Shown here: piece by piece, positions 15,524 to 32,905 of the stretch
Numbering within the stretch: the stretch's first letter is position 1
How the letters are laid out: each line of letters opens with the position of its first letter
From: Acidobacteriota bacterium
Lineage (GTDB): Bacteria; Acidobacteriota; Terriglobia; Terriglobales; Acidobacteriaceae
NCBI GenBank assembly: GCA_021810625.1
Contig: JAJZIJ010000024.1
Coordinates: forward strand, 1-39,372
Length of the DNA stretch: 39,372 nucleotides
Direction of reading: 5' to 3'
The notes under the pieces: generated by a model
What the model was told of the DNA's origin: nothing
What the model saw: only the letters and a program-made list of their open reading frames with translations
Database searches by the model: none
Program-made: the position numbers and the translations under genes

Positions 15524-15659
15524 GCAGAGCCTCCGAAATAAAGCGGAAATGGATTGCCGGGATCGTTGTCCTGATCGCTGTCTGCATAATTATTTCACGA
15601 GAGATCAAATGTCCGCGTCCGCGCCATTCGGCCCGGTAGAATGTCTCCACCGGGATCGG

Positions 15660-17012
15660 ATGCCGGATTGCATGTTGCCAACGTTTTCTACGCGCACACA
15701 GTGGGATCTACGCGAGACCGCCTATGCTGCCGCCCTGCGCCATGCGCGGAGCCAGCCGCAGCCCATCTTTGACCTTACGGCTTCCAATCCCACGACCTGC
15801 GGCTTTGTTTACGAGGACAGCCCCTGGCGCGATCTTCTCCATGCGCCGGAGTGCCGAATCTATGAGCCGAACCCGCAAGGTCTGCGCTCCGCGCGCGAGG
15901 CCGTTGTCGCGTATTACCAGGAGGCGACGGGGGCCAGGCCTGACCCGGATTCCATCGTTTTGACCACCAGCACCAGCGAGGCGTACAGCTTCCTCTTTCG
16001 CCTGCTCTGCGACCACGGGGATGAGGTACTCATCGCGCAGCCAAGCTATCCGCTCTTCGAGTTTCTTGCGGATTTGGATCATGTGCGGCTGGTGAGCTAC
16101 CCGCTCTTTTATGACCACGGATGGCATCTCGATCTTGCCGCGCTGCGGGAGCGCATTACGCCACGGACGCGGGCGATTGTCGTCGTGCAGCCCAATAATC
16201 CGACCGGACATTTCACCAAAAAGGCAGAGAGAAGGGAACTGGAGACCATCTGCGAGCAGTATGGACTGGCATTGATTGTAGATGAGGTTTTTCTTGATTA
16301 TGCAGGCAATTCATCGAGGAATGGTTTAAGAAAATCCTGCTTGAATTCCACGGTTGTCCCTCAGTGGCTAAAGCCAGATTTTATTGCAGATGCCTACGGC
16401 GGGACTAAAGTCCCGCCCCTTCAAAATGCAGATTCATTCAGAGATTCCTTGGACGGGAATAACAGCTTTGCCACCGATGAACATCCCGCGCTCACCTTCA
16501 TTTTGAGCGGCCTCAGTAAGGTGTCGGCGCTGCCGCAGATGAAGGTCGCATGGATGCTCTGCCTGGGGCCGCAGGATGCGTTGCAGCAGGCAAGGTCGCG
16601 GCTGGAGATTATCGCTGACACCTTTCTTTCGATGAATGCGCCCATCCAGCACGCGCTGCCCGGAATGCTGGCTTCGCGTCATGCAATGCAGCGCCAGATT
16701 CTCGAACGGACGCAGGCCAATCTGTCGGAGTTGGATCGTCAGTTACAAACGCAGACGATGATCTCGCGTCTGACTGTCGAGGCGGGTTGGTATGCCGTGC
16801 TGCGAGTTCCGGCGCTTGGCTCGGTGGACGCGGCTGCGATTCGATTGCTGGAGACGGAGCGGGTGCTGGTACATCCCGGACACTTCTATGGATTCGCTGG
16901 TGATGGCTGGCTGGTGGTGAGCCTGTTGCCGCCACTGGCGGAGTTTCAGGAGGGAATGGCGCGGATGGCGCGGTTCTTTCAATCGCCGGGCGCGTCGGAA
17001 TTGCTCCGCTGA
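15660..17012 (+). CDS. PLP-dependent class I/II aminotransferase with in-frame repeat insertion
   Basis: The 450-residue product has the aspartate-aminotransferase fold: an N-terminal FDLTASNPTTCGF, the phosphate-site region TTSTSEAYSFLFRLL, PSYPLFEFLADL, the cofactor-contacting NNPTGHF, VDEVFLDYAG and the PLP lysine (Lys287) in SGLSKVSALPQMK. Substrate cannot be assigned. Between VDEVFLDYAG and ALTFILSGLSK, where relatives have a short loop, there are about 48 extra residues (about 218-265) that are Ser/Asn-rich and unlike the rest. Their DNA contains the palindromes tggctaaagcca and ggcgggactaaagtcccgcc. The frame stays open through it. ATG 15660 and ATG 15672 are both possible starts. Its stop codon abuts that of the convergent rcnR-like gene. 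Confidence 0.88.
   Translation: MPDCMLPTFSTRTQWDLRETAYAAALRHARSQPQPIFDLTASNPTTCGFVYEDSPWRDLLHAPECRIYEPNPQGLRSAREAVVAYYQEATGARPDPDSIVLTTSTSEAYSFLFRLLCDHGDEVLIAQPSYPLFEFLADLDHVRLVSYPLFYDHGWHLDLAALRERITPRTRAIVVVQPNNPTGHFTKKAERRELETICEQYGLALIVDEVFLDYAGNSSRNGLRKSCLNSTVVPQWLKPDFIADAYGGTKVPPLQNADSFRDSLDGNNSFATDEHPALTFILSGLSKVSALPQMKVAWMLCLGPQDALQQARSRLEIIADTFLSMNAPIQHALPGMLASRHAMQRQILERTQANLSELDRQLQTQTMISRLTVEAGWYAVLRVPALGSVDAAAIRLLETERVLVHPGHFYGFAGDGWLVVSLLPPLAEFQEGMARMARFFQSPGASELLR
16338..16430. repeat. palindromic extragenic-type repeat inside the aminotransferase gene
   Basis: This stretch contains the imperfect palindrome tggctaaagcca (16365-16376) and the 20-base perfect one ggcgggactaaagtcccgcc (16398-16417). 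The second shares its core with the hairpin at 32872-32905. Such paired 'ggctaaagcc ... gggactaaagtccc' units are, as I recall, abundant between genes in Acidobacteriota. Here the unit is read through in frame. Its exact ends are estimates. Confidence 0.65.
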
Positions 17013-32871: not shown

Positions 32872-32905
32872 CGCTTACGGCGGGACTTTAGTCCCGCCGT
32901 AAGCG
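32872..32905. repeat. 16-bp perfect hairpin of the 'cgggactttagtcccg' family
   Basis: The two 16-base arms (32872-32887 and 32890-32905) pair perfectly around TT. The core shares ggcgggact/agtcccgcc with the repeat inside the aminotransferase gene at 16398-16417. It lies between the end of secG and the MBL-fold gene on their coding strand. There is no T run, so it is an extragenic palindrome rather than a standard terminator, although it could slow transcription or shield the secG mRNA end. Confidence 0.7.

Follow-up and report, generated by a model that had tools for sequence, protein, structure and literature searches.

The window considered here, i.e. the whole 39,372-nucleotide stretch of acidobacterial DNA that was analysed, carries a class I/II aminotransferase gene into which a short repeated element is inserted in frame. 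The open frame itself spans positions 15549-17012; the start codon at 15612 is our choice, and the protein analysed is that encoded by 15612-17009. In a Pfam profile search, this protein matches PF00155 (Aminotran_1_2) with an E-value of 6.4e-32, and among proteins of solved structure E. coli AlaA (4cvq) and Pyrococcus 1xi9 score highest against it. An Rfam search of the 39,372 nt returned tRNA as the sole match. The insert falls between the conserved Asp of the DEVF.D motif and the PLP-lysine, and lies between D229 and the lysine motif. A preliminary description of this DNA had reported an in-frame repeat insert in an aminotransferase, ahead of the PLP-lysine motif, and both points are borne out by the open frame, the PF00155 match and a 123-nt gap relative to a sister species. 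The features are the following:

15612-17012, + strand: aminotransferase class I/II gene with the insert, 466 amino acids, stop codon at 17010-17012
16326-16329, no strand: left target-site copy TTAA, the sister having a single TTAA at this site
16330-16448, + strand: 119-bp MITE copy, decayed, residues 240-279, delimited by alignment with the other repeat rows and by the 123-nt gap
16330-16346, + strand: left terminal inverted repeat GAAAATCCTGCTTGAAT, differing from the family consensus at 8 of 17 positions
16365-16376, no strand: first core palindrome, decayed, TGGCT-AA-AGCCA (family form CTCAGGGGCTAAAGCC)
16398-16417, no strand: second core palindrome GGCGGGACTAAAGTCCCGCC, perfect, 9-bp arms
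16432-16448, - strand: right terminal inverted repeat, differing from the family consensus at 5 of 17 positions
16449-16452, no strand: right target-site copy TTGG, presumably decayed from TTAA, the duplicated target adding residue 280
32872-32905, no strand: stand-alone core palindrome, a perfect 34-base hairpin, without MITE ends

The limits of the insert were set by comparison with the sister, the one same-genus genome returned (G001; aminotransferase locus L012). The 123-nt gap is the sole large one between the two aminotransferase genes, and the flanking blocks are 90.5% and 92.0% identical at the DNA level. Counting codons from 15612, the insert and the 4-bp target duplication together occupy 16330-16452, i.e. 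41 residues (240-280). The insert proposed earlier is hence real, while its limits (16310-16455, ~48 residues) have to be narrowed. The ends of the window copy depart from the consensus at 13 of 34 positions (9/17 matching on the left, 12/17 on the right) and its two target copies, TTAA and TTGG, now agree at two of four positions; because of this decay it would fail the two-end filter applied to the other copies. The closest of the copies compared, L041 and L042, are 81% identical to it. Judging from its sequence, the window copy is an old family member; it is identified as such by an alignment that covers exactly 119 bp and by the single TTAA of the sister. Directly 3′ of the insert, positions 16449-16463 exhibit many differences relative to the sister, though the next gene block is ~92% identical; this short segment may be a fast-changing loop or bear traces of the insertion.

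The own genome is a 2.45-Mb draft, 99% complete, in 74 contigs. A genome-wide search of the kind that had been proposed, performed with 16310-16455, yielded at least 43 matches at E ≤ 0.001, the query itself included (40 of 71 candidates scored), a number that places the repeat family far from chance. Matches were fetched with their flanks and 49 repeat rows were aligned, the palindrome at 32872 being counted twice, once per strand. Copies with both ends present, with up to three mismatches each, number 23 and measure 117-120 bp, except two at 129 bp. The family consensus starts with GGAAGCTCTGATCAAGT and ends with ACTTGTGCAGAGCTTCC, forming terminal inverted repeats of 17 bp. A YTAR-type tetramer, e.g. 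TTAA, CTAA, TTAG or TCAG, is repeated on both flanks of copies: identical flanking 4-mers are found in 15 of the 23 two-ended copies, where 5000 shuffles give 3.8 on average and never more than 10. With one mismatch allowed, the end motif has 74 matches in the genome versus none for the reversed control. The 119-base consensus is interrupted by stops in each of the six frames and harbors no transposase gene.

Short (within the range of about 70-300 bp of such elements), multicopy, devoid of a transposase gene and bounded by terminal inverted repeats, the family thus possesses the attributes of an IS5-type MITE; the 4-bp YTAR-type duplication is a property of the family, whereas the two target copies of the window element itself agree at 2/4 positions. 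As far as sequence can tell, an IS5-type MITE was inserted, the core of which is a pair of REP-like palindromes. This MITE family, of which no record was found, is new. Two variants, L111 (G000:C11:104312-104502, 191 bp) and L112 (G000:C38:63485-63626, 142 bp), harbor extra palindromes between the same ends.

Only 4 of the 49 aligned rows lie in an open frame extending more than 40 codons on both sides: the window copy, L058, L063 and L069. This check used flanks of ~500 nt, in which copies breaking a gene by a stop would not show. The last three were considered as other in-gene copies and rejected, their four frames having no Pfam match at E ≤ 0.1; they look like spurious or leader frames. 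At L058 (G000:C42:17643-18735, about 501-600), the MITE copy ends shortly before a GGAGG and a GTG codon, and may be located in the leader of the next gene. The window copy is the sole row of the 49 in a frame that is both open through the element and associated with a recognised domain. The earlier idea of an extragenic element turned into protein holds in that the other tested copies are outside recognised genes while this one is now coding sequence; a protein containing the inserted loop would be expected from the open frame.

The two palindromes noticed initially in the insert, one perfect and one decayed, form the core of the MITE, and their kinship with the one at 32872 is firm: the genome contains the exact pattern GCGGGACTNNAGTCCCGC 39 times, at 16399 and 32880 among others, and its reversed control not once. 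The element at 32872 was evaluated as a second full copy of the inserted unit and discarded, as it consists of the core palindrome alone. End motifs are present on both sides of 16 of the 39 exact palindromes, on one side of nine, and beside none of 14, among which are the window copy and 32880. Since the window copy is counted as end-less because its ends are decayed, some other lone palindromes may also be worn-down MITEs; the lone palindromes may therefore be such remnants rather than the source of captured REPs. The palindromic repeat that had been taken as the inserted unit is thus its core, the unit being the 119-bp MITE with IS5-like ends and its target duplication.

Two Y1_Tnp matches were found in the own genome, and the one of them that was tested scored 104 bits, above the cut-off of 80, as a REP-associated tyrosine transposase. 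The RAYT gene at L080 (G000:C50:57100-59900) is bordered on both sides by similar palindromes, in both orientations. To note, the RAYT open frame runs into a REP-like palindrome, giving the C-terminus VPQRLKP...GGAEAPPLQ, a peptide of the same kind as that in the aminotransferase insert. The 119-base consensus was matched in 20 of the 61 genomes searched (14 candidates scored per genome). Among the matches listed, those from outside the genus start at position 21 or later and, with two exceptions, stop at position 100 or before. This sequence version of the element is therefore seen in two species only, its core resembling a wider REP-type family.

An IS5 transposase would be the agent of insertion. 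IS5 of E. coli has ends and a target similar to those of the element. Profile searches of the 99% complete own draft with PF01609 and PF05598 gave no match, and no IS partner was found at its contig ends; the element may lack a partner altogether, or the draft may fail to include the IS. DUF772 (PF05598) was searched in 20 genomes and matched in 12, from which 30 loci were fetched. Four of these (L235, L243, L245 and L251) display convincing end pairs that bound units of 1.10-1.18 kb, with TTAA- or CTAG-like tetramers beside them; two others have chance-looking end pairs and 24 have none. Among the four, only L245, the locus with the ends least like the pattern, displays an exact duplication. 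The transposases of L235 and L245, the two that were tested, belong to IS5 family NF033581 (318 and 278 bits, cut-off 140). Candidate autonomous IS5-family partners are thus L235, L243 and L251 in a Prochlorococcaceae MAG, and L245 in a Thiotrichaceae MAG.

Paired ends of this type are not confined to the own genome. The bare end pattern was detected in 42 of 100 family genomes, with 43 occurrences in the own genome (G000), 13 in the sister (G001), 11 in G079, eight in G076, seven each in G021 and G087, and 0-4 in the others, compared to 12 of 100 genomes, once or twice each, for the reversed control. Other genera of the same family also have ends of this pattern around similar cores, namely in G087 (L204, 121 bp, CTAA/CTAA) and G079 (L224, 118 bp, CTAG/CTAG); in G006, an end pair occurs with equal spacing. 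The paired-end pattern was then scanned over a collection of genomes described as covering 84,980 species (records near the window being possibly left out), which yielded 55 stretches (L144-L198) containing 56 elements with paired IS5-like ends. Their hosts are Binataceae, Dokdonella, Burkholderiales, Muproteobacteria, Methylococcaceae, Thiotrichaceae, Prochlorococcaceae MAGs, Gemmatimonadetes, Acidobacteriota and a few others. Identical tetramers flank 36 of the 56 elements (2000 shuffles: mean 9.8, maximum 19). The cores vary by host, while the ends and the YTAR-type target stay alike. Relative to 100 mononucleotide shuffles each, 38 of the 56 cores have a fold z-score of -3 or below, the consensus core of the window family being at -3.3. 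Not all cores are palindromic, however, which speaks against a general rule: the nine from Prochlorococcaceae MAGs have z-scores of -1.6 to 1.0, and seven of the eight from Acidobacteriota are above -3. Several of the scanned cores resemble REPs of Pseudomonas and others. The Dokdonella and Binataceae MAGs gave at least 87 and at least 81 matches, respectively (40 candidates scored each), i.e. tens of copies. When the cores of six other genomes were searched for, with at most 40 candidates scored per genome, much of the matches listed consisted of full-length copies. In Dokdonella (G124:C8:284126-284889), four MITE copies in the same orientation follow each other with an exact period of 218 bases, as if the MITE and a spacer had been amplified in tandem.

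The insertion into the aminotransferase gene would have taken place in the lineage of the window, after its split from the sister species. The family itself shows signs of mobility in this period. Eight further insertion sites were searched in the sister: L041 and L044 correspond to clean empty sites, which supports movement since the split, as read from these alignments. The L046 site is common to both species and contains an aged copy, so that the family was active before the split too. At L055 the sister DNA is present in rearranged form and the full element is absent; at L048 the DNA is partly different, and at L049 the sister match ends six bases past the junction. The site searches for L052 and L045 gave no match in the sister.

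The net gain keeps the reading frame because 119 + 4 = 123 is divisible by three. The sole stop of the consensus in the frame used is a TGA located in the left end; it reads TGC in the window, and the copy is hence read through. Among the 23 two-ended copies, six have an open frame and the length is frame-preserving in 11, both properties being united only in L057. Between the columns of D229 and F296, the window protein has 66 residues, the sister 25 and the other 27 homologues 18-29. The 41 new residues lengthen a loop, between the DEVF.D Asp and the PLP-lysine, that already varies in length, so that the enzyme would tolerate them and stay under purifying selection. An AlphaFold2 model built from 29 sequences has a mean pLDDT of 82, with 369 of 466 residues at 70 or more; residues 234-281 and the N-terminal 1-22 are below 50. 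Because no aligned sequence covers the insert, this low pLDDT is a weak sign of disorder. The model suggests that the inserted loop is disordered; the enzyme has probably gained 41 residues of flexible loop. Structural modelling, which had been proposed to see whether the insert is a surface loop, thus agrees with the loop position; its exposure at the protein surface would be expected, as would activity of the enzyme carrying it.

Other accounts of the locus have to be weighed. A pseudogene whose long open frame survives by chance would be in line with the one fast-changing loop and the faster C-terminal tail, and is unlikely for several reasons. None of the 71 columns invariant in the 28 homologues, which include D224, N196 and K303, deviates in the window protein. 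The comparison of window and sister over 425 codons yields dN 0.043, dS 0.257 and dN/dS 0.17, a pairwise value that averages the time before and after insertion; by part, the ratio is 0.08 in the N-terminal and 0.28 in the less constrained C-terminal region. The two proteins differ at 30 amino acids; polarisation with the other 27 sequences places 14 of these changes on the window branch and 11 on that of the sister, with five undecided, so that relaxation is not clearly apparent. Moreover, the 119-bp copy has stayed in frame and stop-free. Repeats do cause false joins and the draft is in 74 contigs, yet a repeat spliced into the gene by misassembly is very improbable: the sequences on either side are parts of one gene and align with the sister gene across the insert, and the window copy, at most 81% identical to the copies compared, was not imported from one of them. 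Presence in the ancestor followed by loss in the sister and other relatives has in its favor solely that a comparison of two sequences does not tell gain from loss; it is the least credible account, as none of the 28 aligned homologues (the sister and 27 others; 29 sequences with the window, a 29th homologue, L022, being left out) has the insert. This is also the result of the homologue alignment that had been called for.

The nature of the inserted unit might be contested as well. The core is a palindrome pair, and the own genome contains two Y1_Tnp matches, one of them a RAYT with similar palindromes on both sides; the unit could be a REPIN that the RAYT tyrosine transposase has moved, with merely incidental inverted repeats at its flanks. 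Insertion of a plain REP was rejected, since the core is only part of what was inserted, the unit also having ends and, within the family, a duplication of 4 bp. A REPIN is a distinctly unlikely reading too: the gap relative to the sister comprises the whole 119 bp plus four, beyond the core; the matches listed outside the genus in the 61-genome search start no earlier than position 21 of 119; and the ends and YTAR duplications are common to the own copies and to elements of other genomes with unrelated cores.

The account we favor with considerable confidence is that of an IS5-type MITE with a REP-like core, inserted after the split, in frame, and tolerated. A 119-bp non-autonomous transposon (MITE) with IS5-type ends would have entered a TTAA in the aminotransferase gene, moved by an IS5-family transposase acting in trans that duplicated the TTAA. 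The locus amounts to a clean natural experiment: of two related species, one has the enzyme with a loop derived from a transposon and the other has it without, the empty site being preserved. It also illustrates how the conversion of a MITE into protein depends on element length plus duplication (119 + 4) and on an open frame. Also new here are the putative MITEs of IS5 type, from several phyla, that have REP-like cores. Viewed more broadly, two separate mobile systems, DDE-type MITEs and RAYT-linked palindromes, seem to have been united in a single small element across several phyla, a combination that bears on how REPs spread. It may even be, though we hold this tentatively and at somewhat less than even chance, that chimeric transposons crossing phyla consist of IS5-type ends (GGAANCTCTGNNCAAG, YTAR target) enclosing a host-specific REP/REPIN-like palindrome pair; we found no name for such a class. 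If true, REP pairs would repeatedly have been picked up by DDE-type MITEs and spread as cargo, and REPs would have a second way to move in addition to RAYT, with REP sequence now and then ending up in proteins. No description of a MITE with a REP core was found in the accessible portions of the open-access literature.

The kind of event is known, as in-frame MITE fusion has been described for Rickettsia RPEs, ERIC and others (PMC2229807, PMC10969869); the rarity claimed for it in the preliminary description was overstated, REP insertions in frame being also on record, and it is the chimeric architecture that deserves its own study. RPEs are palindromic mobile elements of about 100-150 bp found in frame in conserved genes (PMC2229807, PMC10969869), and a guanylate kinase bearing one is reported to be active with a changed substrate affinity (PMC2229807). 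The window element is alike in its palindromic, in-frame mode, a likeness in the way it works. Unlike RPEs, it has IS5-like ends and a clear 4-bp duplication, and 1 of 49 rows of its family lies in an open frame with a recognised domain, whereas nearly half of the first-reported RPEs are in genes (PMC10969869).

MITEPsy1 of Pseudomonas syringae is an IS5-type MITE of 100 nt with ends GGAAGGTCTGAAAAAGCC that duplicates CTAG or YTAA; it transposes experimentally and has no coding gene, and two of its six copies are reported to interrupt loci rather than to add residues in frame (PMC3189936). The window family has in common with it ends of similar pattern, the 4-nt duplication and the lack of a coding gene, and fits the IS5 type. 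Intragenic REPs exist in many species, some encoding 43 to 82 amino acids (PMC3733652). REP/REPIN/RAYT systems have in common with the window family a palindrome pair and an accompanying RAYT gene, and possibly also palindromes that stand alone; in the window family, DDE-type ends with a duplication enclose the pair, while the consulted parts of the reports on REPINs do not describe them so (PMC3116915, PMC3733652). The TIRYT/TIRtron elements of Acidobacteria are tyrosine transposase genes flanked by long inverted repeats (PMC3733652). They come from the same phylum as the window, their repeats belong to a Y1 transposase, and they are set beside it by description only. Finally, QMITE2 of Coxiella burnetii is a MITE whose truncated, end-less copies look like REPs (review PMC10969869). 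It belongs to another host, has another sequence and is likened to the window family by description only; a truncation of the QMITE2 type is a possible origin of the lone palindromes observed here.
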